A stretch of 64,000 bases of DNA from Acidobacteriota bacterium (GCA_026393755.1 JAPKZO010000006.1:1-64000); one strand, 5' to 3'; positions 11,475-64,000 are shown, counted from the first letter of the stretch. Numbers and translations are program-made. The notes: generated from the sequence alone by a model not told the origin.

Positions 11475-11479
11475 GCGCG

Positions 11480-13304: not shown

Positions 13305-13354
13305 AGTGGCTGGCAACTGTTTCGTCTTGCAACCCGGAATCGTGAAACCCGCAA

Positions 13355-13374
13355 GGGCACGGCATGCCGTGCCC
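13355..13374. repeat. 20-bp perfect palindrome between tlyA and ispA
   Basis: GGGCACGGCATGCCGTGCCC reads identically on both strands and lies in the 121-base gap between ispA and tlyA. It resembles short palindromic elements dispersed in many bacterial genomes. It could fold in RNA as a hairpin after the ispA stop, but no T-run follows. Confidence 0.6.
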
Positions 13375-13425
13375 CTACCATCAGAAACGCCTCACCGATC
13401 ACATTCGCTCAAGTGGTCTCGGAGA

Positions 13426-14367
13426 CTACGACGTCCGCGAGACGACCCACCGGGCGATCTCGGCGAGGCGGTGGCCGCGCAGATGCGCGCCAGCGAGCGC
13501 GGCGACGGCCGTATCGGCGGCCTCGCGGGCGAGACGCGTCGATTCGTCGAGGCCGAACATCGCCGGGTATGTTGGTTTGTTGGCGGCCGCGTCCTTGCCT
13601 ACGGTCTTGCCGAGCTCCCCGCGATCTCCGACAACATCAAGCACATCGTCGACGATCTGGAACGCGAGACCGAGGCCCGTGGCGTACTGATCGATGGCGG
13701 CAATGTGCTCGGGTGATCCACCGGCCATGATGGCGCCCGCGACGGCCGACGCGCGGATGAGCGCGCCGGTCTTGCGTGCGTGCATGTCGCGCAGGCCGTC
13801 GGCATCCATCGCCGACCGATCAGCGGCGTGTCCCGCGGCCAGCAGATCAATCGCCTGACCGCCGACCATGCCAATTGAACCTGCCGCCTCGGCGATGCGG
13901 TTGATCGCGGCAAGCTTGCGAAGCGCGACGACCCCGTCGCCGGCATCGACCGGCAGCCTGGCGAGCAGCGCGAACGCCTCTGCGAGGAGGGCGTCTCCCG
14001 CCAGAATCGCCATGCCCTCGCCGCAGACGACGTGCAGCGTCGGCTTGCCGCGCCGCATCGTGTCGTTGTCCATGGCGGGCAGGTCGTCGTGGATGAGCGA
14101 GTACGTGTGGATCATCTCGATCGCGCATGCCGCCGGCATCGCCAGTGTCTGTGTCGCGGGTGTGTCGGGCGCAACGGCGTCGGCCGCCGCCAGCACGAGG
14201 ATCGGCCGGAAGCGCTTGCCGCCGGCGAACACGCTGTAGCGCATCGCGTCGGCGATGACGGCCGGGCAGGTCGGGCTGCCGGGAAGCACCGCGCTCAGCT
14301 CGCGCTCGACGTCGCTTCGGAGCGAAACGAGGTAGTCGCGCAGCGCGACGGGAACGGTCGCAGTCAC
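13426..14367 (-). CDS. ispA: Polyprenyl synthetase (farnesyl/geranyl diphosphate synthase type)
   Basis: A trans-prenyltransferase (313 residues) condensing isopentenyl and allylic diphosphates. It has both aspartate-rich motifs: HDDLPAMDND (first, short-chain bacterial FPP synthase spacing) and FQIVDDVLDVVGD (second), plus GKRFRPILVLAAAD and KTGALIRASAVAG. The order xseA-xseB-ispA is a classic bacterial cluster, often followed by dxs; here tlyA follows. The start codon is GTG, and only 2 bases separate it from the xseB stop. Confidence 0.93.
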   Translation of the reverse strand: MTATVPVALRDYLVSLRSDVERELSAVLPGSPTCPAVIADAMRYSVFAGGKRFRPILVLAAADAVAPDTPATQTLAMPAACAIEMIHTYSLIHDDLPAMDNDTMRRGKPTLHVVCGEGMAILAGDALLAEAFALLARLPVDAGDGVVALRKLAAINRIAEAAGSIGMVGGQAIDLLAAGHAADRSAMDADGLRDMHARKTGALIRASAVAGAIMAGGSPEHIAAIDQYATGLGLAFQIVDDVLDVVGDRGELGKTVGKDAAANKPTYPAMFGLDESTRLAREAADTAVAALAGAHLRGHRLAEIARWVVSRTS

Positions 14368-49160: not shown

Positions 49161-50309
49161 TTACGCCTTCAGCTTCACGACCCCGATGCCCGGCCGGCTG
49201 GTCAGCGTCACCTTGCCGTCGATGACCTTCGTGCCGTCAAACAGGTCGTTCGAGATGAGGAGTGCCCCGTCGAGATCGGCCCAGTCGACCATCGGCGAGA
49301 GGTGCGAGGCGGCCGAAATCCCGCACGAGGTTTCCGTCATGCAGCCGAGCATGACCTTCATGCCCAGGGTCCGCGCCAGCAGGAGCATCTTCTGCGCTTC
49401 GCGCATGCCGGTCGACTTCATCAGCTTGATATTGATGCCCGAATAGACGCCCTGCGCCTTGTGCACATCGGCGAGTCGCTGGACGCCTTCGTCACCGATG
49501 ACAGGCAACGGGCTGCGCTCCGTGATCCACGCCATGTCGTCGACGCGCTCCTTGGGGAGCGGCTGCTCGACGTACAGGAATCCGCGCTCCTTCAACCAGA
49601 AGATCATGTCGAGCGCCTGTTGCCGATCGGTCCAGCCCTGGTTGGCGTCGCCGCTCATCGGCTTGTCCGAGACCGATCGGATGGCCTCGACCATCACCTT
49701 GTCCGTGTCGCGCCCAAGCTTGATCTTGAGCACTTTGAACTCGGCGGCTTCTTTCGTCTTCGCCTTGACCACCTCGGGCGTGTCGATCCCGATCGTGAAC
49801 GACGTGACTGGCGCTCTGGCCGGGTCGTAGCCCCAGATGTTGTACCAAGGCTGCTTCATCAGTTTGCCCACGACATCATGCAGCGCGATGTCGATCGACG
49901 CTTTCGCCGCGGGGTTGCCCGGGGCGATGGCATCGATCGCCGTCAGGATCGTCTCGAGATCGAACGGGTTGGAGAACGGGCTGAGATCGACCTTCGCGAG
50001 AAACGCCGTCGCCGTCTCGTGGGATTCTCCCAGGTACGGGGGCATCGAGGCTTCGCCGTACCCGATGATGCCGTCGTATTCGATTTCGGTCAGCACGACC
50101 GGCGTCGTGGTTCGCGAGTTCACGGCGACCGTGAACACGTGCTTCAGCTGCAGCGTGTAGGGACGGAACCGCAGCACCATGCGGGCTCGCCCCTGTACGG
50201 TCTTAGTGCCCTGAGCCTGCAGCCACGATCCAGCCGGGACGAGTACGGAGCCGGCTGCCAGCGTGGAGTGACGAAGAAAGTCGCGTCGCGTGTGAGTCAT
50301 GGTCCCCAT
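49161..50309 (-). CDS. Tat-exported dipeptide epimerase-like enolase-superfamily enzyme
   Basis: A 382-residue enolase-superfamily member. The twin-arginine signal TRRDFLRH begins at residue 7. The barrel shows the acid-base Lys in KIKLG, metal ligands in GDANQGW, VEQPL and GDEGVQ, and a second Lys in NIKLMKS, the muconate-lactonising/dipeptide-epimerase pattern. It would recycle Ala-Glu-type dipeptides from peptidoglycan or similar, in the periplasm, which is unusual because most are cytosolic. GGGAGG lies 4 bases before ATG 50309; another ATG follows 3 codons later. Confidence 0.85.
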   Translation of the reverse strand: MGTMTHTRRDFLRHSTLAAGSVLVPAGSWLQAQGTKTVQGRARMVLRFRPYTLQLKHVFTVAVNSRTTTPVVLTEIEYDGIIGYGEASMPPYLGESHETATAFLAKVDLSPFSNPFDLETILTAIDAIAPGNPAAKASIDIALHDVVGKLMKQPWYNIWGYDPARAPVTSFTIGIDTPEVVKAKTKEAAEFKVLKIKLGRDTDKVMVEAIRSVSDKPMSGDANQGWTDRQQALDMIFWLKERGFLYVEQPLPKERVDDMAWITERSPLPVIGDEGVQRLADVHKAQGVYSGINIKLMKSTGMREAQKMLLLARTLGMKVMLGCMTETSCGISAASHLSPMVDWADLDGALLISNDLFDGTKVIDGKVTLTSRPGIGVVKLKA

Positions 50310-50370
50310 CTTACCTCCCGAAGTGGTCTTTCACTCGGACTGTCTCGCCGCTCGGACTGTGAACGCTGTT

Positions 50371-50388
50371 GCCGGGCTCCAGCCCGGC
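50371..50388. repeat. Short perfect hairpin
   Basis: GCCGGGCT-CC-AGCCCGGC, 8-bp stem with a 2-base tip, in a gap of about 470 bases without an intact gene. Same design as the hairpins at 10181 and 14670. Confidence 0.5.
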
Positions 50389-50525
50389 TCGACACGAGTC
50401 GCGAGAACCGGCGATTCGAGCCGGACACGTCAACGCCGAACGCGACGTAGGTGACGATCAGCACCCCGGCCAGAGCATCGGTCCAAGCGACTCGGGCCGA
50501 GGAGCGGCCTTCCCGGCGACCGCCG

Positions 50526-50783
50526 TCAGCACAAGGACCGAGACGACGGCGCCCGGTGCCAGCTGACGCCCGTGTCGTCGAGAGCGGGAGCGGCGGCCGG
50601 CACGATGCTCGTCCGGTAGACGGGTTTGGCGCCAGCGTCGTGCAGCGAGAGACTGTGCCAGGTGATCTGATGAAGGCCGCGCCAGGCAATGGCGCTCCCA
50701 TAGGCGATTGCGACACGTCCATCGGCATCGACGCAGTCGAGATACCACTTCGTCAGGGAGAAGGCCTGTATGCGAGCGCCGGC
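50526..50783 (-). pseudogene. Open frame without a start codon; CrtC/Svf1-like relic
   Basis: Between the DUF2007 stop and TGA 50528-50526 a clean minus-strand frame of 85 codons runs without ATG, GTG or TTG at its head. It reads WYLDCVDADGRVAIAYGSAI, then AWRGLHQITWHSLSLHD, then TSIVPAAAPALDDTGVSWH. This pattern suggests the beginning of a carotenoid-hydratase/Svf1-like lipocalin fold, cut off after about 75 residues. The original start codon is lost or was CTG. Confidence 0.4.
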
Positions 50784-51029
50784 CTAGTCCGCAGAAGATG
50801 GGCCAGCGGTTCCGTCCTCTTGCGCGGCGCCCAGGACGCGCTCGGCCTGTTCGAGCTGCTCGGTCGCCACGAGGACCTTGACGCCGCGGACCAATCCCAG
50901 CGCGGGATCAAGGGCACCGCAGTCGTCGCTGCTCGTGATCGCCTCAATGCCGCTGCCTTCGAGGACGCTCTTGACGATCTCAGCTTCGTGCTGGTAACTG
51001 AAGGTCCTGACCACGGCCCATTCCGACAC
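50784..51029 (-). CDS. DUF2007-type small protein
   Basis: An 81-residue protein; VVRTFSYQHEAEIVKSVLEG, then GIEAITSSDDCG and VKVLVATEQLEQAERVL, matches the DUF2007 fold (often called putative signal-transducing). The start is GTG 51029, six bases behind AGGAGG; longer readings upstream are not supported. Its stop is directly followed by the CrtC-like relic frame. Confidence 0.8.
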   Translation of the reverse strand: MSEWAVVRTFSYQHEAEIVKSVLEGSGIEAITSSDDCGALDPALGLVRGVKVLVATEQLEQAERVLGAAQEDGTAGPSSAD

Positions 51030-51673
51030 CGGTCGCCTCCTGACGTGGCGCATCGGCCGCCTCGGCCGGCGTGAACGCCGGGCAGATGCCCCAGCGCCGC
51101 CATTCTATACCCTGCGCGCACCTGTGGGACGATCGCCGGCGGCCCTTGAGGTACCCAGATCAGACTGACCCCTCCTGGTGTCCCGAGGCGGAAATTCGCC
51201 GACATATTCCGGGCGGGGCATCCCGCGTCCCACCCCAACGCGGCTGCCGCGTCGGGCCCCCCGGCTCGCTGCGTTGCTCAGCGTTCAAATACTCCCGGTA
51301 CTCTCGCGTTTCGCGCCTTGCGATCCGGGCGCCGCGCTCCGGACTATTCGTCACCGAACTTCTGACTCGGGACACTACCGCGGGCCGGTCCAATCGACAA
51401 CGTCCAACGTGCACGCGCTTCCGTCAACGCGAATCTCCGAGTCTCGCCCTCGGAGTGTGTCCCCTGTTCGGAACCCGGCATTGCGCGTCGACCGACGAGC
51501 GGACGAGAGGCTGACCCCACGCCGTTCTACGTGGATTCGCCCGGAGGCGACCGCCTTTGCTATAATCCTGCGGACGACGGAGGGATTCCGGCTCGGCCCC
51601 TGCAAGTCACTTCATGGTTGAGCCGAGGCGCGGTTGCAGCGCGTCGCCGAACGCTCAACGAGAGGATTCCGTG
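51030..51673. other. Long intergenic region
   Basis: About 640 bases between the DUF2007 gene and the UspA gene. It contains GC-rich sequence with several short, open but unconvincing frames in each direction. The only clear sites are a TAGAAT -10-like box on the minus strand (51102-51107) and an extended -10 for uspA on the plus strand. I see no gene. Confidence 0.4.
51558..51566 (+). promoter_or_regulatory. Extended -10 box upstream of uspA
   Basis: TGCTATAAT is a consensus extended -10 (TGnTATAAT) about 100 bases before the uspA start. No -35 box is visible, as allowed for extended -10 promoters. Confidence 0.5.
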
Positions 51674-52138
51674 GTGACTGTGAAGTCCATTCTGGTTCCG
51701 ACCGACTTCAGCGAGACCGCGGCTGCCGCGGTTCGTTGCGCCGCCGGCCTGGCCGAGATATTCGGCTCTTCGCTCACGCTGCTGCACGTGGTGGAAGACC
51801 TGGTCGTGAAGGGACTGAGCGCCGACGTCGGCACGGCGGCTGCGGGCCGTCTCAGGGATGACGCAGTCAGAAGCGCCATGGTCTCCCTCGATCGCGTGCT
51901 GACAGAACCCCCGCTCAATCGGACGGGTGTCGACAAGGTTGTGCTCGCCGGAGATCCACTCGACGTCATTCTTCGCTATGCCACCGAACACCTCGTCGAC
52001 CTCATCGTGATTGGCACTCACGGACGGACCGGACTCCCCCGCGTGCTGCTCGGGAGTGTGGCCGAACGCGTGGTCCGCACCTCACCGTGTCCGGTATTGA
52101 GCGTTCGGCAGTGTCAGCACGCCTTCGAGAACACGTGA
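51674..52138 (+). CDS. Universal stress protein (UspA family)
   Basis: A 154-residue Usp-domain protein: VKSILVPTDFSETAAAAVRC begins the Rossmann-like fold, LVDLIVIGTHGRTGLPRVLLG is the ATP-binding GxxGx9G(S) loop region, and TSPCPVLSV ends the fold. Three GTG codons compete; 51674, eight bases after AGAGG, is preferred. It is followed by the Rrf2 gene in the same direction after 40 bases, which suggests a common role in stress. Confidence 0.9.
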   Translation: MTVKSILVPTDFSETAAAAVRCAAGLAEIFGSSLTLLHVVEDLVVKGLSADVGTAAAGRLRDDAVRSAMVSLDRVLTEPPLNRTGVDKVVLAGDPLDVILRYATEHLVDLIVIGTHGRTGLPRVLLGSVAERVVRTSPCPVLSVRQCQHAFENT

Positions 52139-52178
52139 GTCGCAAGCGCCCGTCCTAGATCCCGACAGAGGAACCGAC

Positions 52179-52712
52179 ATGCTATCGGCAAAGGCGAAAT
52201 ACGGGCTGAAAGCCCTCTTGAGTCTGGCGATGGAGCCACAGTCGCGTCCCGCCCTCGGTGCGGTGATCGCGGCACGGGAGGACATCCCGAAGAAGTTTCT
52301 CGAACAAATCCTGCTGGAACTGAAACATCGGGGGTTGCTCCAGACCAAGCGGGGCCGGCACGGGGGCTACCTGTTGACGCGCGACCCCGCCGAGATCACC
52401 GTCGGCCAGATCATCCGGGCGCTGGACGGTCCGATTGCGCCCATTCCCTGTGTATCCCAGTCGGCGTACGTGAAGTGCGACGAGTGCAAGGACGAAACGA
52501 CGTGCGGAATCCGTCTCGTCATGAAGCAGGTCCGGGACGCCATGGCGAGAATCCTTGATACGGCAACGCTCGCCGATGTCGTCCGGATGATCGCGGCGGC
52601 TTCCAAGCCCTCAGACGTCGTGGCGCCTCCGGCGTCGACCAAGGCCAAACGTCCCGAGCCTGAGGGGCAGACCGTGCACTTCCGGAAACTTCGAGGAAAG
52701 CTCAGGCGATAG
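52179..52712 (+). CDS. Rrf2 family regulator with cysteine cluster
   Basis: The 177-residue regulator has a winged helix (MLSAKAKYGLKALLSLAM then GLLQTKRGRHGGYLLTRDP) and the cysteine-rich loop CDECKDETTCG, preceded by another Cys (PIPCVS). IscR/NsrR-type Rrf2 proteins bind an Fe-S cluster here and sense redox state or NO; other members (CymR) lack it. An additional ~35-residue basic tail is present. It probably governs part of this island. AGAGGAACCGAC precedes the ATG. Confidence 0.9.
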   Translation: MLSAKAKYGLKALLSLAMEPQSRPALGAVIAAREDIPKKFLEQILLELKHRGLLQTKRGRHGGYLLTRDPAEITVGQIIRALDGPIAPIPCVSQSAYVKCDECKDETTCGIRLVMKQVRDAMARILDTATLADVVRMIAAASKPSDVVAPPASTKAKRPEPEGQTVHFRKLRGKLRR

Positions 52713-52743
52713 CGCCGCGCGGCCCCGCCGACGTGGAATCCGG

Positions 52744-53094
52744 TCAGAACGTCAGCACTTTTTCGGCGTCAAGCACCATCATGCCGACTTCACCGAGTCT
52801 GGCCTGTTTGCATCCCTCAAGCAGGTCCTGGGCCTGCAGCCCTCGAGCGGCCATGCAGGTTTCACAGACGAGCACCAGGCCGCGCCGCAACACTGGACGC
52901 AGCATGCGGCCGATGTTGTAGAACCCCTCGGGTGTCTGCTGCCCCTGTTTCGCGCACCACACGGCGTCGCCGAGCAGGCAGACCGTCAGTTCGAGATGCT
53001 CATCGAGCGCCAGCATCGCGTCGGCGAGACGCAGCGCCGCGTACGGGCGTTCACTTCCGTACGGGGTGTCGTTCAGTACCATTGTGATTCCCAT
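52744..53094 (-). CDS. DsrE-like sulfur-relay family protein
   Basis: A 116-residue protein with the DsrE/TusD-type fold pattern: VLNDTPYGSERPYAALRLA, LTVCLLGDAVWCAKQGQ and GLVLVCETCMAARGL with a conserved Cys that would carry sulfur. The start ATG 53094 lies seven bases after AGGAG. It is transcribed opposite to its neighbours, opening a divergent region toward adk. A role in sulfur transfer is inferred from the family. Confidence 0.8.
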   Translation of the reverse strand: MGITMVLNDTPYGSERPYAALRLADAMLALDEHLELTVCLLGDAVWCAKQGQQTPEGFYNIGRMLRPVLRRGLVLVCETCMAARGLQAQDLLEGCKQARLGEVGMMVLDAEKVLTF

Positions 53095-53203
53095 GTTGCG
53101 GCTCCTGGATCGTACCGCCCAGCATAGCGAACAACGATCGGTTGACGCGAATGGAACGGCTAGTCCATCGATTCTATCGACTGGACCGGCACATGCCTGG
53201 TTA

Positions 53204-53232
53204 TTGACACCCGCGGTGCCCGGCTCTATGCT
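53204..53232 (+). promoter_or_regulatory. Consensus-like promoter for adenylate kinase
   Basis: TTGACA (53204-53209), 17 bases, TATGCT (53227-53232). The start would be near 53240, giving a ~120-base leader for the adk gene at 53363. Confidence 0.65.
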
Positions 53233-53362
53233 CCTGCGCGATGACGGACTCGTGGATGAGGGCGCACGCCCCTTCACGATCCGTGTTGGGAGGCTCCCAT
53301 GCGTTCGGGTTCCGGTGTCGGCGCCTGGCGTGACATGCCTCCATCTGACCGAGATCATTACC

Positions 53363-54040
53363 ATGAACGTGATTCTGCTTGGACCGCCGGGCGCGGGGAA
53401 GGGTACACAGGCTGCGGCCATCGTGGAGCATTGCCACGTGCCGCACGTGTCGACCGGGGACATCATCCGAGACGCGATCGCCAGGAACACGCCGCGCGGA
53501 CGAGAGTTCCGGTGCTTTTCCGACACGGGCCGACTGGTGCCTGACGATCTGGTGAACGAGGTTGTCGCTGACCGTCTGGTCTATCCCGATTGCGACGCGG
53601 GTTTCCTGCTCGACGGCTACCCGCGAACCATCGAACAGGCGTGTACGCTCGATATGGTGCTCGAACGCCGCAGTCGCTCGCTCGACCATGTCATACTGCT
53701 CGACGTGGCCGACGCAATCCTCATCGAACGCATCACAGGTCGACGGTCCGATCCGGTGACCCGGCGGGTGTTTCATCTGCGTTTCGATCCGCCGCCACCT
53801 GAAATTGCCGGCCGTCTCGTTCAGCGGCATGACGATACCGCGGAGGTGCTGACGCGGCGGCTTGCCGAGTACCATCAGAAGACCGACGCGCTGGTGCCCT
53901 ACTACGAGCGGCTGGGCCTGTTGAGGCGGGTCGACGGCACGGGCCGGGTCGACGAGGTTCGGCAGCGTACGCTGTCGGTGCTGGGCCAGGCACCGGTGCG
54001 CGCGCGCGCAGCGGCTTCCCAGGTCGGCGCCGATTCTTGA
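53363..54040 (+). CDS. adk: Adenylate kinase
   Basis: A 225-residue nucleoside monophosphate kinase. MNVILLGPPGAGKGTQAAAI is the P-loop, VSTGDIIRDAI the AMP-binding start, LLDGYPRTIEQA the family motif. It has the long LID insert (TGRRSDPVTRRVFHL) without zinc cysteines. ATG 53363 is chosen; the frame upstream of it is not conserved. It may be an extra copy since housekeeping adk usually lies near secY, and its location in a stress island suggests special regulation. Confidence 0.93.
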   Translation: MNVILLGPPGAGKGTQAAAIVEHCHVPHVSTGDIIRDAIARNTPRGREFRCFSDTGRLVPDDLVNEVVADRLVYPDCDAGFLLDGYPRTIEQACTLDMVLERRSRSLDHVILLDVADAILIERITGRRSDPVTRRVFHLRFDPPPPEIAGRLVQRHDDTAEVLTRRLAEYHQKTDALVPYYERLGLLRRVDGTGRVDEVRQRTLSVLGQAPVRARAAASQVGADS

Positions 54041-54187
54041 CAGCACCGGGACGCGTCCATATCATCGGGGGGCCGGTCGTTCCCGGCAACAGACGACGCA
54101 GCCTCGCTGGCCTGTGCTCGATTCTGAAGCTGTGATGGGTTTCGTTCCTGCCTGAGCGCGATCGGACTCGCGCGAACCGGGGGTCGC

Positions 54188-54952
54188 ATGCCAGCCGGAA
54201 CCGTCTACTTGGTTGGCGCAGGACCTGGACATCCTGATCTGCTCACCCTGAGAGCCGCCGCGCTCCTGCAGATCGCAGACGTCATTGTCTACGACCGCCT
54301 CATTCAGCCGGCGGTACTCGATCTGGCAAGTCCGGCCGCTGAGCGCATCTTCATGGGCAAACGGCCCGATGGTCCCGAGTCGCAGCAGGACGACATTCAC
54401 ACGGTGCTGCTCCGGAAGTCGAACGAAGGAAAGACCGTCGTCAGGCTGAAAGGCGGCGACCCTTTCATGTTCGGCCGCGGCGGCGAGGAAGCGGAGTTCC
54501 TGGCAGGACACGGCGTGCCCTTCGAGGTGGTGCCGGGCGTGTCCTCCGCGTTGGCCGCGCCGTTGCGGGCGGGCATTCCTGTCACCCACCGAGGCGTGGC
54601 CTCTTCTGTGGCGTTTGTCACTGGCCACGAGGCCAACGACGACGTATCGGGCCTGGACTGGCCCGCCCTGGCACGGATGCACACGCTGGTGTTCATGATG
54701 GCGGTCGGCAACGTGCGCCGGATCGCGGCGCGCCTGATCGAAGACGGCCGCCTCGCGTCTACGCCTGTTGCGATCATCAAGTCGGCGTACTGGGACACTG
54801 AACAGATCGTCACCTCGACGCTCGACGCGATTGCCGACGAGGTAGATCGCTTGGGGATTCAACCTCCGGCCACGTTGGTCGTTGGCGATGTCGTGCGGTT
54901 GCGCCGGAAGCTGGCCGGCACGCGGATGCTGCCGAAATCGGAGTCCCTGTGA
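54188..54952 (+). CDS. cobA: Uroporphyrinogen-III C-methyltransferase
   Basis: A 254-residue SUMT, making precorrin-2 for siroheme and cobalamin. VYLVGAGPGHPDLLTLRAA opens it; VVRLKGGDPFMFGRGGEEAE and PGVSSALAAPLRAGIPVTHR are diagnostic, and FMMAVGNVRRIAARLI follows. The next gene starts 7 bases after its stop. Confidence 0.94.
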   Translation: MPAGTVYLVGAGPGHPDLLTLRAAALLQIADVIVYDRLIQPAVLDLASPAAERIFMGKRPDGPESQQDDIHTVLLRKSNEGKTVVRLKGGDPFMFGRGGEEAEFLAGHGVPFEVVPGVSSALAAPLRAGIPVTHRGVASSVAFVTGHEANDDVSGLDWPALARMHTLVFMMAVGNVRRIAARLIEDGRLASTPVAIIKSAYWDTEQIVTSTLDAIADEVDRLGIQPPATLVVGDVVRLRRKLAGTRMLPKSESL

Positions 54953-54959
54953 TCGAACC

Positions 54960-55616
54960 ATGAGCTATGTGGTGAATCTCGTCGTGCAGGACCGTCCTGC
55001 CCTTGTCGTCGGCGCCGGCGCCGTCGCGGCCCGGAAGATCGCGGCGCTCGTGGACGCGAAGGCACGCGTCACGGTGGTCGCCCCGAGGATGTGCGACGCC
55101 GTCCACCGGCTCGAACTGGACGGGCATGTGCGAGTCGAGCACCGGCTTTTCGAGCCCGGCGATACGCGCGGGGCATTTCTGGTCGTCGCCGCCACCGACG
55201 ATGACCGAGTCAACCGGCAGGTGGCCGCGGAGGCCCGCGCCGCGGGAGCCCTCGTCAATGTCGTCGATCGCCCCGCGCTATGCGCTTTCACCGTGCCGGC
55301 CGTCGTCCGCCGTGGAGACCTCACGCTCGCGGTGGCGACCGAGGGCCGATGTCCGTCGCTGGCCCGCGCGATCCGGGAGCAACTCGAGCGCCAGTACGGA
55401 CCGGAGTATGCCGAGGCCGTCACGCGCCTGGCCGATCTGCGACAGCGCCTGATCGCCGCCGGGTGGTCATCCTCCCGGATCAGGGCCGCCGTGTCGGCCG
55501 TGATCGGCGATGGGCTGGTCGAGGCGATCGCCTCCGGCGACCAGGCCCGTTCGGACCGCTTGCTGACCAACCTGCTTGTCGACGCCGGCGATGTCGCCGT
55601 CGCGCACGACGGCTGA
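54960..55616 (+). CDS. Precorrin-2 dehydrogenase/sirohydrochlorin ferrochelatase
   Basis: A 218-residue protein of the CysG N-terminal/Met8p type which completes siroheme with NAD and ferrous iron. ALVVGAGAVAARKIAALVDA is its NAD-binding motif; FLVVAATDDDRVNRQVAAEA, NVVDRPALCAFTVPAVVRRG and LTLAVATEGRCPSLAR follow. ATG 54960 is 7 bases after cobA. Siroheme is used by sulfite and nitrite reductases, tying the island to sulfur or nitrogen redox. Confidence 0.92.
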   Translation: MSYVVNLVVQDRPALVVGAGAVAARKIAALVDAKARVTVVAPRMCDAVHRLELDGHVRVEHRLFEPGDTRGAFLVVAATDDDRVNRQVAAEARAAGALVNVVDRPALCAFTVPAVVRRGDLTLAVATEGRCPSLARAIREQLERQYGPEYAEAVTRLADLRQRLIAAGWSSSRIRAAVSAVIGDGLVEAIASGDQARSDRLLTNLLVDAGDVAVAHDG

Positions 55617-55632
55617 ACGGACACACCACGCC

Positions 55633-56439
55633 ATGCCAGTGATCACGATTTCACGAGGCTCATTCAGCGGGGGCAAGATGCTCGGCGAATGTCTCGCCGA
55701 CAGGCTCGGATACCGATGCATCGACCGCGACGTGATCGTCGCGCGTGCAGCCGCCTACGGCGTTCCGCAGGAAGCGTTGCGGGATGCCCTGTCGAAGCCG
55801 CCGTCGTTCTGGGATCGCTTTCGACACACGAAGTATGTCTACCTCACCCTGATCCAGGCCGCGCTCACCGAGGAAGTGCGGGCCGGCCAGGCGGTCTATC
55901 ACGGGAACGCCGGCCATCTCCTTCTGCGCGGTGTCAGTCACGTGCTTCGGACGCGCATCATTGCGCCCATGCCTTTCCGAGTGTCTGCGGTGCAGGATCG
56001 CCTCACGATGAGCGAATCCGACGCGCTCGCGCACATTCAGAAGATGGATCAGGATCGACAGAAATGGACCCAGTACCTGTACGGCGTCGATTGGGGTGAT
56101 CCGTCCCTCTACGATCTCGTGCTGAACCTCGAATCGCTCGACATCCAGGCTGCCTGCACCATCATCGGTCAGATGGCCGCCGAGCGGTGTTTCGCGGAAA
56201 CAGCCGAGAGCCAGGCGGCGATGGAAGACCTGACGCTTGCCAGCCGCGTCCGGGCCAGTCTGGCGGTGGCGAACCGCACATCGACCCTCGAGGTGGAGGT
56301 CAGCGCGCGCGGCGGGGCAGTCACGATCACCGGCAAGCTTCCGACGGCCGACCGGGCGGCCGACCTCCAGGCGATTGTCCGGCAGGTGCCCGGCGTGACC
56401 GATGTGCAGCTGAACGTCTTCACGCTGTCCGACGTCTGA
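55633..56439 (+). CDS. Cytidylate-kinase-like protein with BON domain (copy A)
   Basis: A 268-residue protein in two parts. Residues 1-190 resemble the Cytidylate_kin2 group, with ITISRGSFSGGKMLGECLA as a P-loop-like start, SKPPSFWDRFR, GQAVYHGNAGHLLLRG and DRQKWTQYLYGVDWGDPSLY. Residues 205-265 are a BON domain (LEVEVSARGGAVTITGKLPT ... VPGVTDVQLNVF), a membrane or lipid-binding fold. The nucleotide substrate is unknown. A paralogue with the same layout is at 63059, so the pair brackets the minus-strand operon. It starts 16 bases after the siroheme gene. Confidence 0.75.
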   Translation: MPVITISRGSFSGGKMLGECLADRLGYRCIDRDVIVARAAAYGVPQEALRDALSKPPSFWDRFRHTKYVYLTLIQAALTEEVRAGQAVYHGNAGHLLLRGVSHVLRTRIIAPMPFRVSAVQDRLTMSESDALAHIQKMDQDRQKWTQYLYGVDWGDPSLYDLVLNLESLDIQAACTIIGQMAAERCFAETAESQAAMEDLTLASRVRASLAVANRTSTLEVEVSARGGAVTITGKLPTADRAADLQAIVRQVPGVTDVQLNVFTLSDV

Positions 56440-56455
56440 CGAAGTATCGGCAGGC

Positions 56456-56851
56456 CTAGCGCGGATCGCTGCCGCCTTCACCAGCCGGGCCGAGGATGCG
56501 CAGCACCAGATCGCGGAGGTACCGCATCTTGAATGGCTTCGGGATGAAGTCTACCGCGCCTCCCTTGAGTGCCTCTCGTGCCGTTTCCTTGGTGGCAAAC
56601 CCGGTGATGACGATCACCTTGGTGGCCGGGTAATTCTCTCTGACGAAGTGCATGAGGTCGATCCCGGTTGGACCGCGCATCTTGATGTCGGTGATCACCA
56701 GACTGAAGGGTCGCTCGGAGATCCGTCTCAAGGCGGCGGTGCTGTCAACATCGGTCTCCACGTCCAGCCCCAGGCGCTCGAGTTCCGCTCCGATCCGATC
56801 GCACACGATTCGCTCATCGTCGACGATGAGGACGCGCGGTCTCGCTGTCAT
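56456..56851 (-). CDS. Single-domain response regulator
   Basis: A 131-residue CheY-like receiver: VLIVDDERIVCDRI, phospho-acceptor Asp55 in LVITDIKMRGP, VIVITGFATKETA and the Lys in FIPKPFKM. It has no output domain, so it acts by protein contact. Its ATG overlaps the stop of the PEP-synthase-like/receiver gene by 4 bases. The receiver is a close relative of the one fused to the C-terminus of that neighbour. Confidence 0.92.
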   Translation of the reverse strand: MTARPRVLIVDDERIVCDRIGAELERLGLDVETDVDSTAALRRISERPFSLVITDIKMRGPTGIDLMHFVRENYPATKVIVITGFATKETAREALKGGAVDFIPKPFKMRYLRDLVLRILGPAGEGGSDPR

Positions 56852-59805
56852 AGGGTCTCCCTGGTACGGTGTTCCGGCAGCCAGCGCTTGGCCTTCTTCG
56901 CGGCCTGTTTCACCATCGCCTCGAGGTCTTCCAGCCGAAACGGCTTGTCGAGAAAACCGAAGGCCCCTACGGCCTCCGCTCCCCGAAGCGCTTCAATCGA
57001 ACGGTAGCCGGTGATGATGATGACCTCGGTGGGCAGGCTGTACTGTTTGACTGCCACCAACACGTCGAGCCCCGTGGGGCCGCTCATCTTGAGGTCAGTC
57101 ACCACCACGTGGAATTGCCGTTCCGTCAAGCGCGAGATTGCCGTCCGGCTGTCGAGGTACGTTTCCACCGACATGCCGCGTGCCTCCAAGTGGTCCTTCA
57201 GCCGCTGGCACACCGTCGTCTCGTCGTCCAACACCAGCACGTTGATCGTGTCTGCCATGCCCTGATCTCCTCTCACACCTTCGAGGACCGGCTCAAACTG
57301 CCCCTTCAGAAACCGATCGACCATCACCTCGACCACGTTGTCGGCACGAAGGAAAATGTCCAGCTGACGGGTGAATCCGACAAGCCGGCCGAGCATCGAA
57401 AGACGGTCTTCGACCAGCGACCGGGGAACGCCCCCGAGGCGGGCGATAACAAGCTCGCCCTTCTGCTCGACCTGGAAGTCGTGGTGCAGGAGGATGGCGG
57501 CCAGCACGCGTGCCCGGCGGGTGCGCCGCGTCACGTCGGTCACGCCGCCGATGAAGCGAAACACGATGCGCGAACTCTCCGGGCCATCCCCCAAGTAGGC
57601 GTCGATCACGTTGAAGTGGTAGCCCACCCTCAGATTGACGTTCACGTAGTGGGCCGAGGCGATGGCCACATTGCGAGGCACCGGCACAGCGCCGGGCAGC
57701 ATCATGGCTGTGCCCCGTGTTGCGCTAGCCATGAACCCCTCGAGGTCCATGTCTGCAGCCGAGGTCGCCCAGACTCCCGGGGTCATCACGCCCCGCAGCA
57801 GCAGGCGGAGGGGCTCGGACGCGATCATGTCCGGCGTGATGCGCGCCGGCAGGGCGTCCCGCACGAGCGCGCCCCCGAGGTCGATGACCCGCAGATCGAG
57901 CGGCACGTCCAGTTCCAGCCGGTGTACCCACTTCGGACAATCGCGCAGCCGCACCTCGTCGAGCCTGGCCAGTTCATCGAGTGCCCGCTCGTGGGCGAAC
58001 CGGATGATGTCGTGGTAGGTCCGGCAGGCTTCAGGGACGAAGTCCGGCGCGTCGGGGTCGGTCAGCGACAGCGGGGCGATGTGGTGCAGCGCACGTCGTA
58101 GCGCCTGAAATTCGGGACTCTCGGTGCAGGAGCGCCCTTCCAGCACCTCGTACTGCAACAGTGCTTCGACCCGGCCCTCATAGATAGCGGCGTCGTTGGC
58201 ATCGACGGTCACTTCCATGCCCGGCCGGAGTCTGGTGGTGGCTCCGGCCACGCCGACGAGCGTCGGGATTCGGAATTCACGGGCGACGGTCGCCATGTGG
58301 CCGGTGATCGCGCCGACCTCGGTGACAACAGCGCTCGCGATCGGCACCAGCGGCGCCAGGCGCGGCGTGGCGTATTTCGTCACGAGCACATGGCCGGGCT
58401 GAAACGTCTTGCCATCGGCATCGCTGGCAACGATGCTGACCGGTCCGGCTCCGACACCGCGGCAGGCGACGGTGCCGGCGCCATCGAGCAGCATGGGCCG
58501 CTCACGCAGCACCGCCGACACCGCTTCCGCGAGTCGGGCCGGCGGCCGGGTCAGCCGGAGCGGCCGGGCCTGCAGGATTTGCAATTCTCTGTCAGGCGTC
58601 ATCGCCCATTCGATGTCCTGCGGGCACTTCATGTGGCGCTCGATCTGGAGCGCCGCGCTCGCCAGGGCCACGACTTGTTGGGCCGTCAGCGCTGGCGAGG
58701 TGCGCCTGGCTGGCGCGACGTCGACGGTGGCGACCCCCCCGGCGTCTGCGGGGGCGACCATCTGCAGCTTGGACACGACGTTCGTGTGCATCACGCGCGG
58801 GATCTGCGTACGCGATACCCGAAACGTGTCGGCGCTGCCCGTGCCTTCGACCACCGTTACGCCGAGGCCGTACGCCGCCGTGACCAGCATGGTTGGGTCG
58901 TCGGGATCCGCCGGGTTCATCGTATAGATGACGCCGCTTGCTTCTGCCGGCACCATCGTCAGACACGCCACCGCCATGCTGGCCTGACGATGCGGCATTC
59001 CGAGGCGCCTCCGGTAGTCGATGGCACGCGGGGAGAACAGGCTGGCGACGACCTCTTGCCACGCGCGCACGACACCCTTGCTCGCGACGTTCAGCCGCGT
59101 GTCGAACTGCCCGGCGAAGCTGTGTTCGCGGTCTTCACCGATGGCACTGCTGCGCACCGAGAATCTCGTTCCACGATCGAACGCCGCCAGCGCGCGGCGG
59201 ATGGCCACGACGACGGCGCGAGGAGGCGGAAGTTCGAGGATGGCCTCGACCAGGTCCCTCGAAGCCACCTCGGGGTCGTGGCCGTCGACCGCGTGCAGCC
59301 GACTTGCGAGCCTGCGATCGTCGAGCAGCATCTGGCACGCGCGGGCCGTGATGGCGAACCCAGGCGGCACGCGCAGTCCCACGCGATGGGCGATCTCGCC
59401 GAGCCTCGCGGACTTCTCTCCAACCGTGTCGGCGTGCTCGCTGCGAATCTGTTCGAGGCCGATCACGAGGCGATCATCGTGAGAACCCGCATCGCACCCC
59501 AGGCTCGACCGGACGCGGGCGCGGATCTGTTCCCACGCGACCGCCAGCCCCGGGTACCGGTTGTCCGACATGGCTGCCAGATCCCGAATCGTGCTGAGCA
59601 CCGCCTCTGCCAGATCGGATTCAAGCGTGCACAGGTACTGCTTGTCGAAGAGGTACTCGCCCCCGAGTGATTCTTCTGCGCCCGCGATGAGCTCCAGGGT
59701 CCTGTTGTCCATCGACAGGAGGTGAGTGAAGTGATCGAACCGTGCGCGAAGCGCATCCCGGCCGTGGGTCCGTCGAAGCCGGAACAGGGCGGCCAGCCTG
59801 ACCAT
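56848..59805 (-). CDS. PEP synthase-like protein fused to a receiver domain
   Basis: A 985-residue fusion. After a helical N-terminus (1-115) comes an ATP-grasp PPDK N-terminal-like domain (~125-420: EKSARLGEIAHRVGL, FSVRSSAIGEDREHSFAGQF, DIEWAMTPDRELQILQARPL). A mobile phosphohistidine-like domain (~445-545) keeps His503 in GAITGHMATVAREF where PPS has TCHAA. The PEP/pyruvate-binding barrel is missing; residues ~550-850 are of unknown fold. A receiver domain occupies 854-975 with phospho-acceptor Asp904 in VVTDLKMSGP. This would let two phosphosignals meet in one protein. ATG 59805 gives the proper N-terminus. Confidence 0.85.
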   Translation of the reverse strand: MVRLAALFRLRRTHGRDALRARFDHFTHLLSMDNRTLELIAGAEESLGGEYLFDKQYLCTLESDLAEAVLSTIRDLAAMSDNRYPGLAVAWEQIRARVRSSLGCDAGSHDDRLVIGLEQIRSEHADTVGEKSARLGEIAHRVGLRVPPGFAITARACQMLLDDRRLASRLHAVDGHDPEVASRDLVEAILELPPPRAVVVAIRRALAAFDRGTRFSVRSSAIGEDREHSFAGQFDTRLNVASKGVVRAWQEVVASLFSPRAIDYRRRLGMPHRQASMAVACLTMVPAEASGVIYTMNPADPDDPTMLVTAAYGLGVTVVEGTGSADTFRVSRTQIPRVMHTNVVSKLQMVAPADAGGVATVDVAPARRTSPALTAQQVVALASAALQIERHMKCPQDIEWAMTPDRELQILQARPLRLTRPPARLAEAVSAVLRERPMLLDGAGTVACRGVGAGPVSIVASDADGKTFQPGHVLVTKYATPRLAPLVPIASAVVTEVGAITGHMATVAREFRIPTLVGVAGATTRLRPGMEVTVDANDAAIYEGRVEALLQYEVLEGRSCTESPEFQALRRALHHIAPLSLTDPDAPDFVPEACRTYHDIIRFAHERALDELARLDEVRLRDCPKWVHRLELDVPLDLRVIDLGGALVRDALPARITPDMIASEPLRLLLRGVMTPGVWATSAADMDLEGFMASATRGTAMMLPGAVPVPRNVAIASAHYVNVNLRVGYHFNVIDAYLGDGPESSRIVFRFIGGVTDVTRRTRRARVLAAILLHHDFQVEQKGELVIARLGGVPRSLVEDRLSMLGRLVGFTRQLDIFLRADNVVEVMVDRFLKGQFEPVLEGVRGDQGMADTINVLVLDDETTVCQRLKDHLEARGMSVETYLDSRTAISRLTERQFHVVVTDLKMSGPTGLDVLVAVKQYSLPTEVIIITGYRSIEALRGAEAVGAFGFLDKPFRLEDLEAMVKQAAKKAKRWLPEHRTRETL

Positions 59806-59813
59806 GATGCGCC

Positions 59814-60560
59814 TCAGTGCCCCTTCTGGGACTTCGTGCTGAACAGCACCCCCGTCAGCAGTCCGACGGCGATGGCAATCACGACGGACATCCACCCATA
59901 GACGGTTCCATGGTCCATGGCCAAGCCGTGCATGGCGCGGACGACGCCCGCGTACTCAATGGTCAGGGGAACCGCCGCGAGCCGCGCCACATGCCCGTGC
60001 TCGAACCCGAACAGTTCGACCTGCCAGGTGCCTGGCGGAATCTTGGCGGGTAGTGACAGCGTGCCCTCGAATACCGCGCTGCCACCCTCGCCCCCACCCG
60101 TCTTCGTGAGGGCGCCTTCCAGCACCCGGTACAGGCCGTCCCGCTGCTTGAGCTTCACGAACTGGTCACGGTACGGTCCCCCGGGCGACTCGTCTGGCAG
60201 GAGCGCTTCGCTGCCCAGCTTCCAGGTCGCAAGTTCGCGAGGCGGCGCCATGTCGCGAAGCGGAGCGCTTGTCAGGAGATAGTAGATGATCGGCACACCG
60301 TCCAGGTCGACGTCGGCGACGTTCATCCACAGGATGCCGGCCACCTTACCCTTCTGTTTGAGTTCCACACGGCCAGAGAGGCCAGTCAGACGCACGGCGG
60401 CGCCGGCGTTGGCCGGGAGCTGGACCCGAATATGGAGGTCGCTGCCGTTGTAGAAGAGATTGACGGTTACGTGGTCGGGTGCCACGACAATCGCCCCCGC
60501 CTCCGCGGCGGCTGACGACGCAGCGGGCCAGACCAGCATGCCCACCAGCAGCGCGACCAT
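59814..60560 (-). CDS. TIGR02186/Alph_Pro_TM-like membrane protein
   Basis: A 248-residue protein with an N-terminal signal (MVALLVGMLVWPAASSAAAE), a periplasmic beta-rich body beginning IVVAPDHVTVNLFYNGSDL, and a C-terminal membrane helix (GWMSVVIAIAVGLLTGVLF). This matches proteins often encoded next to TauE/SafE transporters in Proteobacteria. The start ATG 60560 is 5 bases after the tauE stop. Its function is not known; a partner of the transporter is likely. Confidence 0.75.
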   Translation of the reverse strand: MVALLVGMLVWPAASSAAAEAGAIVVAPDHVTVNLFYNGSDLHIRVQLPANAGAAVRLTGLSGRVELKQKGKVAGILWMNVADVDLDGVPIIYYLLTSAPLRDMAPPRELATWKLGSEALLPDESPGGPYRDQFVKLKQRDGLYRVLEGALTKTGGGEGGSAVFEGTLSLPAKIPPGTWQVELFGFEHGHVARLAAVPLTIEYAGVVRAMHGLAMDHGTVYGWMSVVIAIAVGLLTGVLFSTKSQKGH

Positions 60561-60565
60561 CACGT

Positions 60566-61483
60566 CTAGTACCCCCCTTTGTAGTCGAGAAGAACCTCGG
60601 GGTGCTGCATCAGCCCAAGCAGCATCTTCGTCATGACGGCCAGGACAACGATCGCCATGAGGATCTTGAGCTGCTCGGCTCCGAGGCGCTTTCCGAGGCG
60701 CACGCCGATCTGCGCGCCCAGGACCGACCCGACCAGCAGCAAGAGGGCCAGGACGAAGTCGACGGTGTGATTGAGCGCGGCCTGCAGCACCGTCACGTTG
60801 ATGCACGTGAAAAGGACCTGGAACAGGCTGGTGGCGACGACGACGTGGATCGGCATCCGCAGGAGGTAAATCATCACTGGCACCATGATGAATCCTCCGC
60901 CGACGCCCATAATGGCGGCCAGGATGCCCACGAGCACGCCGAGCAGGAGCGGCAAGAGGGCTGACACCGACACCTTCGACCTGGGGAAGTGCATCTTCCA
61001 GGGCAAAGCCTCCACGGCCCGGCGGTAGATGGAGTGGCGCACGGACACTACTCGTCTGCGCCGCTGCCGCATCGAGGTCAGGCTCTCGAAGAACATGTAC
61101 GCCCCGATGCCGCCCAGCATCACGACGTACACGACCGTGATGACGAAACCGGCCTCCCCAAGGCCGCGCAGCATCTTGATGAGCTGCACGCCGACCGAAC
61201 CGCCCGCCAGACCGCCGACGAGCATGAGCAACCCCATCTTGAAATCGATGTTGCCCTCACGAAAGTGGGCGTAGCATCCGGACGCCGACGCCGCGACGAT
61301 CTGGTTCGAATCGGAGGCCGCAGCGACCGCGGCGGGGATGCCCAGCATCATCAGCAGCGGCGTCATGAGAAATCCGCCGCCGACCCCAAACAGCCCTGAG
61401 AGGAGCCCGACGAGCCCACCCAGCCCGACGAGCAGCAGCGCATTGACCGCGTTGCCGGCGATAGGCAGATATATGTACATCAT
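60566..61483 (-). CDS. TauE/SafE family membrane transporter
   Basis: A 305-residue protein with about eight transmembrane helices in two halves, each starting with a SGxxGxGGGFxMxPL-type motif (GLLSGLFGVGGGFLMTPLLM and ILAAIMGVGGGFIMVPVMIY). These carry sulfite, sulfoacetate or other organosulfur anions out of cells. A central cytosolic loop (about residues 140-180) is Arg-rich (MRQRRRRVVSVR). The start is ATG 61483, 4 bases downstream of the sensor kinase stop codon. Confidence 0.88.
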   Translation of the reverse strand: MMYIYLPIAGNAVNALLLVGLGGLVGLLSGLFGVGGGFLMTPLLMMLGIPAAVAAASDSNQIVAASASGCYAHFREGNIDFKMGLLMLVGGLAGGSVGVQLIKMLRGLGEAGFVITVVYVVMLGGIGAYMFFESLTSMRQRRRRVVSVRHSIYRRAVEALPWKMHFPRSKVSVSALLPLLLGVLVGILAAIMGVGGGFIMVPVMIYLLRMPIHVVVATSLFQVLFTCINVTVLQAALNHTVDFVLALLLLVGSVLGAQIGVRLGKRLGAEQLKILMAIVVLAVMTKMLLGLMQHPEVLLDYKGGY

Positions 61484-61487
61484 CGCG

Positions 61488-63041
61488 TCATCCTGACACC
61501 CGCGCAGCGACGGCCCCGGGTGACCCCGGCACGGGCAGCATGACGGTGAACACCGTCCCCTGGCCGACCCGGCTCTCCACTTCAATGCGGCCGCCGTGCC
61601 GCTTGACGGTCTGGTAGCTCACGAACAGCCCCAGCCCCGTACCCACACCGACCTCCTTGGAGGTGAAAAAGGGGTCGAAGATCGATCCCAGGTCCTCCTC
61701 GGGAATCCCGAGACCGGTGTCGGCGATCTCGATGCTGATCGTTGCGTGATCCACCCGCGTTGCCCGAACGGTGATCGTGCCGCCGTTCGGCATGGCCTGG
61801 ATCGCATTCAGGAAGAGATTCACGAACACCTGCTGAAGCTCCCGCGGGTTGCCGTCGACCATCGGCAGGTCATCCGGCAGGGCCACGTCGACGTGGCTGA
61901 TTTGCGCCTCGTTGCCGATCAGGCGGCGCGCGCCGGCGAGGACCTCGGCCAGCGAGACAGGCACGAACACCGGCTTCTCGACCCGGGTGAAGTCGAGGAG
62001 ATTGTGCACGGTCCCGCTCGCCCGCTCGACCTGATTGACGACGTCCTCGATCATGGCGAGCTTCTGCGCGTCGGCGTAGGCGTCGAAGTGTTCGAGGAGA
62101 GCCTCGGCGTTCAGGCTGATATTGTTGAGCGGGTTGTTGAGCTCGTGCGCGATGCCGGCCGTCAGCGTTCCGACCGCGGCCATGCGGCTGCTGCGCTCGA
62201 GCCGGTGCTCGCGATCTCGCAGCCGGAACACCATTCGGTTGATGGCGATCGCCAGGTCCGAGAACTCGTCGCGGTACCGTCGCGCCGGCTGAACTGGTGA
62301 GTAGTCGCCCCCGGCGATGCGCTGCGTGTAGCCGACGAATCGGCGGAGCGGGCTGGCAATCTGCCGCGTCATCGCGTAACCCATGGTGGCCATGACCACG
62401 AAGACCAGCAGCAACGCTCCGATCGACACGAGTGACGAAGTCCGGATGGCCGTGTGCAGCTGCATGCGCTCTCGCTGGACGACGTCGTTGGCATCGGCCA
62501 GCAACTGGGCGCCGACCCGGCGCAGTCCGTGCTCGATCGTGGCGTGCTCAGCCAAGGCCGGCGGGTCCCGACGTGTGCCGAGCGCCCCGAACCGCTCCAG
62601 CAGCGTCGCGTAGTTGTCGAGCTCACCCTCCATCCGCTCGAAGGTTGGCGCGCCCACCAGGGCGACCACGGCGTCCCGGGACCCACGCAACAGCTGATGG
62701 GCCGCCTGGGCCTGGTTCATTGCGTCGTCCAGGTTGGTGCCGTAGAGCAGATAGTTCTTCTCGTAGCGCCGCGCGTGCTCGAGTTCGAGGGTGTAGGTGC
62801 TGACTCGTTCGAGAAACTCCTGGAACATCGCGACACGCGACATGAGCATCATGGAGGCGACGACAACACTGGCCACTAGCAGGAACGAGGTGAGCATGGT
62901 CAGTGCGATGCGCAACCCGATGCTGACGTTGGGCCGATCGGCTAGAGCCCGCTCGGAGCCGAGCGCGCGGCGCGCGTCCTCGTCGCCTCGAACCGGATCA
63001 GGCGTGCGTCCTGCTCCTGGGTAGGGGTGCTGCGGCGTCAT
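61488..63041 (-). CDS. Membrane sensor histidine kinase
   Basis: A 517-residue kinase. Transmembrane helices at about 44-68 and 205-224 enclose a helical periplasmic sensor whose RRYEKNYLLYG resembles four-helix-bundle sensors. HAMP follows (~224-277), then HisKA with His299 in AGIAHELNNPLNN and a HATPase domain with N (FLNAIQAM), G1 (IADTGLGIPEED) and G2 (GVGTGLGL) boxes. It has a cytosolic N-terminal tail of about 40 polar residues. Its likely partners are the two receivers later in the operon. Confidence 0.93.
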   Translation of the reverse strand: MTPQHPYPGAGRTPDPVRGDEDARRALGSERALADRPNVSIGLRIALTMLTSFLLVASVVVASMMLMSRVAMFQEFLERVSTYTLELEHARRYEKNYLLYGTNLDDAMNQAQAAHQLLRGSRDAVVALVGAPTFERMEGELDNYATLLERFGALGTRRDPPALAEHATIEHGLRRVGAQLLADANDVVQRERMQLHTAIRTSSLVSIGALLLVFVVMATMGYAMTRQIASPLRRFVGYTQRIAGGDYSPVQPARRYRDEFSDLAIAINRMVFRLRDREHRLERSSRMAAVGTLTAGIAHELNNPLNNISLNAEALLEHFDAYADAQKLAMIEDVVNQVERASGTVHNLLDFTRVEKPVFVPVSLAEVLAGARRLIGNEAQISHVDVALPDDLPMVDGNPRELQQVFVNLFLNAIQAMPNGGTITVRATRVDHATISIEIADTGLGIPEEDLGSIFDPFFTSKEVGVGTGLGLFVSYQTVKRHGGRIEVESRVGQGTVFTVMLPVPGSPGAVAARVSG

Positions 63042-63058
63042 CCCAAGTCTGCTCGAGG

Positions 63059-63868
63059 CTACAGGGCCAGCGTCGCCGTGACGACGTGGTTGACGACGGC
63101 CCTTACGCCCTCGGTGGCCGACGCAACCTCCGCGGCCTCACCCACGGTGGCAGCCATGCGGACCATCCCTTCGATCGTGACAGTGCCCGCGTCGGCCTGG
63201 ACGCGGAAGTCCGAATCCCGAGTCCGCTGGTCGCGCGCCAGCGCCGCCGTGACCAAACTGGCCACCGCGAGGTTCTGCATCGCCGTCTGTGATTGCTCCG
63301 TCTGTTCGAACTGTTCCAACTCCGTCATCCGGACGACGACCTCACACGCACCGGCCGCACCCAGGTACTCCAGGTTGAGCACCACGTCGTAGTTCGACGC
63401 GTCCTCCCAGGCAACACCATAGAGGAAGCGCGTCCACTTTCGGCGATCTTCGTCCACCTTGTTGATGTAGGCCTCGGCCTGACCGCTCGTCATGTTGCAC
63501 TGCGCCATCGCGGCGTGGATGCGGTAGCTGAGGTCTGCGACGACGCGCACTCGGATGACGTGCCTGACGCCCGCGAGCAGGTGATGGCCGGCGTGGCCGT
63601 GGTAGATGAGGTTGCCAACCTTGGCGCGCTGGCAGAGGACGGCTCGAATATAGGCCAGGTAGCGGTCGCGGTCGCGCCGGAACCGATCCCAGAACGACGG
63701 GGGTTGGCTGAGGGCTGCGCCCAACTCGACCTGCGACACGCCGTACACCGCGGCCGCTTCTGCGATGACCTCGCGGCTCAAACAGGGGTAGCCGAGCCGA
63801 TCTGCGAGGCATTCAGCCAGCCGCTTGCCACCGCTGAACGTCCCACGCGAAATGGTGATGATGGACAC
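63059..63868 (-). CDS. Cytidylate-kinase-like protein with BON domain (copy B)
   Basis: A 269-residue paralogue of the protein at 55633 with the same plan. ITISRGTFSGGKRLAECLAD starts it; SQPPSFWDRFRRD, GNLIYHGHAGHHLLAG and DRRKWTRFLYGVAWEDASNY are all shared. The C-terminal BON-like part (FRVQADAGTVTIEGMVRMAA ... VNHVVTATLAL) is more divergent. GTG 63868 follows GGGGGAAG by 4 bases. First gene of the six-gene operon, 17 bases before the sensor kinase. Confidence 0.75.
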   Translation of the reverse strand: MSIITISRGTFSGGKRLAECLADRLGYPCLSREVIAEAAAVYGVSQVELGAALSQPPSFWDRFRRDRDRYLAYIRAVLCQRAKVGNLIYHGHAGHHLLAGVRHVIRVRVVADLSYRIHAAMAQCNMTSGQAEAYINKVDEDRRKWTRFLYGVAWEDASNYDVVLNLEYLGAAGACEVVVRMTELEQFEQTEQSQTAMQNLAVASLVTAALARDQRTRDSDFRVQADAGTVTIEGMVRMAATVGEAAEVASATEGVRAVVNHVVTATLAL

Positions 63869-63942
63869 GGGACTTCCCCCTTGATCGTGCAGACGCGGGC
63901 GCAGGGGGCAGAACGGGAGCCCAAACGTGGCAAGGCGTGCCC

Positions 63943-63970
63943 AGTATACTGCGGTCGGTGAGCGAGTCAA
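63943..63970 (-). promoter_or_regulatory. Promoter of the six-gene kinase/transport/receiver operon
   Basis: On the minus strand TTGACT (63970-63965), a 16-base spacer and TATACT (63948-63943). Start expected near 63936, about 70 bases before GTG 63868. This seems to drive 63868 down to 56456. Confidence 0.65.
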
Positions 63971-64000
63971 CGCGCGCGTAGCGAATCACCTGCGTGAAGC

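Follow-up and report, generated by a model that had tools for sequence, protein, structure and literature searches.

The locus studied here raises the question of what a protein may do that resembles phosphoenolpyruvate (PEP) synthase, has lost the PEP-binding barrel and seems to end in a receiver domain. It lies on contig C6 of an Acidobacteriota genome, within the stretch of 64,000 nucleotides that we analysed (the window), and the ATG of its gene follows just past the stop of the preceding Alph_Pro_TM gene. A preliminary description had seen in the protein (P0001) a PEP-synthase-like phosphotransferase whose acceptor domain has been exchanged, and both the loss of the barrel and the ATP-to-His residues described below support this core idea.

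Table 1. Features of the P0001 locus in window positions, with residue ranges of P0001 where a domain is listed.
Feature	Position	Strand	Remarks
PEP-synthase-like protein plus receiver (P0001)	56848..59805	-	single open frame, 985 aa
N-terminal helical region, residues 1-110	59476..59805	-	kept across the family; no Pfam match
ATP-grasp domain PPDK_N, residues 126-419	58549..59430	-	Pfam match; K131, R218, E399, Q412 and R414 invariant in 32 members
PEP-utilizers swivelling domain, residues 468-537	58195..58404	-	catalytic-type His503 at 58299-58297
C-terminal domain (CTD), residues ~548-838	57292..58164	-	where the PEP barrel would be; family with invariant C594, H598, D599, R602, H605, Y720, H730, G754, R764 and D816
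Junction	57256..57275	-	+1-frame TGA 57275-57273; Shine-Dalgarno AGGAG 57271-57267; receiver's own ATG 57258-57256 (Met850)
Receiver domain, residues 856-966	56908..57240	-	Asp904 at 57096-57094; acidic pair 860-861; Lys954
Second, stand-alone receiver, 131 aa	56456..56851	-	overlaps the stop of the PEP-synthase-like gene by 4 nt
Alph_Pro_TM / TIGR02186-like membrane protein	59814..60806	-	9 nt separate its end from the PEP-synthase-like gene; its real start is probably later than 60806
TauE/SafE (TSUP) transporter	60566..61585	-	domain match
Sensor histidine kinase (HAMP, HisKA, HATPase_c)	61488..63041	-	domain match
Cytidylate-kinase-like protein with BON domain	63059..63970	-	domain match
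Second cytidylate-kinase-like protein with BON domain	55576..56439	+	faces the operon

Domain searches identify three parts of P0001. The ATP-grasp part is of the PEP synthase/PPDK type (PPDK_N, E = 3.9e-74; PF01326, 250 bits against a cut-off of 27), the swivelling domain matches PF00391 with 64.7 bits (E = 5.8e-18), and the receiver (Response_reg, E = 2.4e-20) carries the complete PF00072 signature, with DDE at 860-862, Asp904, IITGY from 930 and Lys954. Translation of the open frame confirms the numbering of His503 and Asp904 in the preliminary description, and its reading of TGHMAT as the phospho-His motif also holds, with the histidine kept in all 32 family members aligned. In fact, K131, R218, S219, E224, E399, Q412, R414, G498 and H503 are each conserved in 32/32 members, and the view that the ATP-to-His half of P0001 is intact is supported at the level of sequence.

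The PEP/pyruvate barrel (PF02896) has no Pfam match in P0001 or in its three paralogues of the same make-up on contig C6 (C6:78346-80919, about 81.4-84.0 kb, and 90422-92944; 33-39% identity to P0001 over about 820 residues). A search of all contigs finds PF02896 in only two other proteins of the genome: one on C19, of 984 aa and also with PPDK_N, looks like an ordinary PPDK, and one on C22, of 603 aa, resembles enzyme I. Together these searches bear out the earlier claim that the barrel was lost, and on their basis we reject a diverged barrel in residues 550-850. With no barrel and an intact ATP-to-His half, P0001 is not expected to synthesise PEP in the usual way, as had been proposed, and phosphoryl transfer to another target is the best reading. 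We note that another protein of the same genome (L017:7447-10242, on C8), of 931 aa, combines PPDK_N (180 bits) with about 340 other residues before it and is devoid of the CTD; it apparently stands outside the module described below.

What occupies the place of the barrel? The preliminary description spoke of about 300 residues of unknown fold, and Pfam indeed finds no match within residues 538-855, but this stretch is a conserved domain family and not a leftover. When the four paralogues are aligned with relatives from Gemmatimonadetes (one) and Nitrospirae (two), residues 548-840 are conserved as much as the rest of the protein, and an alignment of 44 CTD sequences reveals 14 invariant columns. 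Many of these are polar, a pattern that suggests a ligand-binding or active site rather than filler. Searches of family members against Pfam and NCBIfam gave nothing convincing, and the best PDB match of a CTD profile (a UPF0166 protein, E = 0.024 over 71 columns) is not trusted. The CTD has no match in plasmids, and viral contigs hold PPDK_N/His-type relatives only, none extending into the CTD. At the locus itself, PADLOC detects the receiver only, weakly, and Rfam nothing over 50000-64000.

Structure prediction of residues 550-850 had been suggested as the check on the barrel. AlphaFold2 reached a pLDDT of 48 for the full length with four sequences and a mean pLDDT of 49 for the CTD alone, a model too poor for a fold and limiting for fold searches, so that the loss of the barrel rests on the Pfam and genome searches; the strand pattern of this poor model, which lacks an eightfold beta/alpha repeat, is a weak point in the same direction. 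With the full-length model, Foldseek and VIA-align matched the first two domains only. Searches with the CTD model returned scattered weak matches, none significant (best E 0.19, best Z 6.1); candidates such as a guanidino kinase, the C-terminal part of an aminotransferase or a ferredoxin-like design were rejected as weak and non-significant, and no fold is claimed. Two Nitrospirota members (L087:7257-10454 and L088:6550-9750) carry about 200 additional C-terminal residues that are weakly lectin-like, with Glyco_hydro_59_C just under the cut-off in L088.

Comparison with known systems helps to narrow the chemistry. P0001 shares with PEP synthase (PpsA) and PPDK an ATP-grasp domain followed by a swivelling phospho-His domain, in the same order, but differs from them in the missing barrel, in the extra N-terminal helical region and new CTD, and in scores far under the family cut-offs: its top NCBIfam match, PRK06464 (PEP synthase), covers residues 111-551 only with 315.6 of 598 bits, and TIGR01418 reaches 293.8 of 739.75 bits (under the equivalog cut-off). 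Phosphoryl transfer to a non-pyruvate target without a PEP barrel is documented for rifampin phosphotransferase (RPH; PMC4844700) and for HpeHI/PpsAB (PMC12167813). RPH is likewise a PEP-synthase-like dikinase with a replaced acceptor domain, and its Lys22, Arg117 and His825, which are needed for catalysis (PMC4844700), have invariant counterparts in the P0001 family by alignment. However, RPH holds its acceptor domain in the middle and its His domain at the C-terminus, whereas the His domain of P0001 precedes the CTD, and P0001 has no match to the RPH acceptor domain and falls under the cut-off of the NCBIfam model RIF_Ptrans_rph (247.3 of 999 bits). HpeHI, CreHI and the phenylphosphate synthase PpsAB perform the ATP-to-His chemistry predicted for P0001, also without the barrel (PMC12167813), and one of the closest structural matches to the ATP-grasp part is HpeI (9goj; Z 20.9, rmsd 2.0 over 167 residues). 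Unlike P0001, whose ATP-grasp and His parts share one open frame, these enzymes consist of two polypeptides, act on aromatic substrates and lack a sulfur or two-component setting.

The same invariant residues bear on whether P0001 catalyses anything at all. A PEP-synthase fold could serve as a non-catalytic nucleotide sensor or scaffold that reads ATP/AMP and passes its state to a transporter or kinase, a role to which the regulatory neighbourhood described below would be suited; strict conservation of His503 and of the ATP-grasp catalytic residues in 32 members is unexpected for a pseudoenzyme, and we consider such a role unlikely.

We return to a dikinase, in which the steps would be as follows: (I) ATP binds to the ATP-grasp domain; (II) His503 on the swivelling domain would take the beta-phosphate, with release of AMP and Pi; (III) the phospho-His domain would swing to the CTD, where a putative acceptor is phosphorylated; and (IV) the membrane histidine kinase encoded nearby would phosphorylate one or two single-domain receivers, which may switch the enzyme on or off. 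The enzyme would serve a sulfur-anion transport module (TSUP transporter and Alph_Pro_TM membrane protein) in bacteria using the Apr/Dsr pathway. A receiver-controlled dikinase of this kind is the most likely explanation, and one that we hold to be about evenly poised between right and wrong. Its acceptor site would lie in the CTD; the receiver control is suggested by the gene neighbourhood, and the role in sulfur-anion transport by the TSUP partner together with the dsr/apr link.

Does the receiver belong to the same polypeptide? A single base would, from the junction, decide between one gene and two. The fused reading of the preliminary description stands insofar as a single open frame, of normal coding character, joins the receiver to the rest, but the fusion itself is doubtful and could reflect an indel in the assembly or have arisen very recently. 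The junction reads ...GGTGTGAGAGGAGATCAGGGCATGGCAGAC..., with an AGGAG 8 nt upstream of the receiver's own ATG, which is an ideal Shine-Dalgarno; in the +1 frame, the upstream part would end in ...RSSKV-TGA just before these signals, and the unfused orthologue in a relative, at locus L009, ends in ...SPKV. L009 has the same gene order but two separate receivers after the PEP-synthase-like gene; the fused receiver, 53% identical to the first of them, is its orthologue, and the second receiver of the window is 52% identical to the second, the best matches falling in that order. Among the loci read, P0001 is alone in the family in having a receiver after the CTD. On the same contig, dsrA (C6:104160-105360; L016:10160-11360) has one base more than its homologues, which breaks it into two frames at about C6:104564, with the adjoining dsrB intact. 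Either an assembly error or a broken gene, it shows that C6 is not free of single-base frame errors or mutations; a frame check of about 43 kb found one more possible frameshift case besides dsrA.

Taken together, these features lead us to treat the fusion as doubtful. The receiver could equally be a separate gene, in which case the unit would consist of a PEP-synthase-like protein and two stand-alone receivers, as in L009, and the fusion would go back to an indel in the assembly or to a one-base mutation of very recent date. Besides the open frame, two points speak against this: REC-PPDK response regulators, in which a receiver is joined to a PPDK-type domain, are recorded in Bacteroides and Heimdallarchaeota (PMC5847659), and the prior chance that an error falls within just these 40 nt or so is low. 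We give the separate gene an even chance. The matter concerns the fusion only, and either outcome is compatible with a receiver-controlled dikinase. Another genome of the order encodes an Alph_Pro_TM and a PEP-synthase-like protein in one open frame (L107:12077-15466), with a start codon and a Shine-Dalgarno-like stretch at the junction; because the junction is of the same kind, this fusion is as uncertain as that of the receiver.

A link to receivers holds up without the fusion, through the gene neighbourhood, a point that the preliminary description did not raise. On the minus strand, the genes follow one another in the order cytidylate-kinase-like/BON, histidine kinase, TauE/SafE, Alph_Pro_TM, PEP-synthase-like (plus receiver) and second receiver, and the same set is found again in L009. 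Neighbours were counted within 5 kb of 30 family genes drawn from Acidobacteriota and Nitrospirota loci: a histidine kinase lies near 24/30, a lone receiver near 20/30 and a TSUP transporter near 20/30. ORFs were picked mechanically for these counts, and single cases may be wrong. These frequencies are far above the several percent that we estimate from about 40 receiver matches in the 4.43-Mb genome. The TSUP transporter of the module is of the same family as those present, according to one survey, in all 44 sulfate-reducer genomes considered (PMC5840216); there, TSUP function is described as not settled, and the passages of the survey retrieved by a term search make no mention of a histidine kinase or a PEP-synthase-like partner.

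With His503 and the receiver Asp, Thr and Lys all intact, and receivers adjoining the gene in most loci, the phosphoryl group might instead pass from phospho-His503 to a receiver aspartate (Asp904 or that of the lone receivers), ATP thereby charging the receiver without a classical histidine kinase. Such a phosphorelay is improbable in our estimate: the histidine kinase nearby in most loci would suffice as donor, nothing would be left for the CTD and its invariant polar residues to do, and copies exist without a receiver nearby (in L081 and L085, the stretch read contains no kinase, receiver or transporter). Cytidylate-kinase-like proteins (Cytidylate_kin2, some with BON) also accompany the module, both in the window (Table 1) and at C6:64260-65801 and 69808-70779 and L009:228-923, 11434-12282 and 13238-14152.

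The tie of the third domain to dissimilatory sulfur metabolism was missed in the preliminary description and emerges from genome counts. Further along contig C6, the island continues with aprB, aprA, qmo-like genes and dsrAB at 95.7-106.5 kb. Among 297 genomes of the Acidobacteriota, the CTD is present in 13, dsrB over cut-off in 24 and both in 12 (Fisher 4e-14, shared ancestry ignored), and the single carrier devoid of dsrB is 67% complete. In Nitrospirota (246 genomes, dsrB counted at E 1e-60 or better), 71 have the CTD, 113 dsrB and 66 both (Fisher 6e-23, shared ancestry ignored), leaving 5/71 carriers without a dsrB match; relatives found by name have dsrB in 3/3. Within the Acidobacteriota, all 12 dsrB-positive carriers have aprA, compared with 5/12 dsrB-positive non-carriers (p = 0.005, shared ancestry ignored), and in 7/12 of these carrier genomes one contig carries both a family gene and aprA, no more than 15 kb apart. 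In the Nitrospirota sample, aprA does not separate dsrB-positive carriers (25/28) from other dsrB-positive genomes (27/28). DsrD was dropped as a marker of reductive Dsr, having been found in too few genomes. Carriers hold up to four or five family copies per genome, and the spread is patchy (2/162 genomes of the order), which would fit transfer together with sulfur genes. We note that uroporphyrinogen methyltransferase-like and CysG N-terminal-like genes adjoin the module at 54188-55616 of the window, likely for synthesis of sirohaem for DsrAB.

The C6 sulfur island also contains a membrane H+-pyrophosphatase (C6:70863-73391; L014:16863-19391), as expected for sulfate activation. This gene, the presence of aprA in every dsrB-positive carrier of the Acidobacteriota and its closeness to family genes would suit an enzyme running backwards on AMP/PPi (or AMP/Pi) beside APS reductase and the pyrophosphatase, with a phosphorylated donor bound to the CTD from which ATP is remade; in bacteria and protozoa, PPDK itself is a source of ATP (PMC5371819). 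However, no phosphorylated donor is known, P0001 is closest in sequence to PEP synthases, enzymes that release Pi and do not use PPi, and receivers and several paralogues would hardly be needed. We regard salvage of this kind as very unlikely. A bolder form of the preferred dikinase reading is that the CTD family constitutes a new receiver-gated dikinase phosphorylating a component of sulfate/sulfite handling, be it a sulfur-anion transporter, the membrane protein that goes with it or a small metabolite of the sulfur pathway. The transfer would then be a step of dissimilatory sulfur metabolism itself, a reading that we advance tentatively and consider doubtful.

PEP-synthase-like enzymes with exchanged acceptor domains are already known, as are the REC-PPDK fusions of Bacteroides and Heimdallarchaeota (PMC5847659). 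Neither the CTD family nor its connection with dissimilatory sulfur metabolism and two-component/TSUP modules appears to have been described: the literature libraries searched hold no description of the family, and a term search found no mention of it in the dsr/apr and sulfate-transporter papers examined.

How sulfate activation and sulfite handling are controlled and coupled to energy is understood only in part. Missing parts may be sought among genes that accompany apr/dsr from phylum to phylum, and a multi-copy PEP-synthase-like family set among two-component genes is a concrete, testable candidate. It also adds another case of an ATP-grasp/phospho-His pair given a new acceptor domain. In sum, a CTD family nearly confined to bacteria of sulfate/sulfite respiration hints at a phosphate-transfer step in the sulfur cycle.
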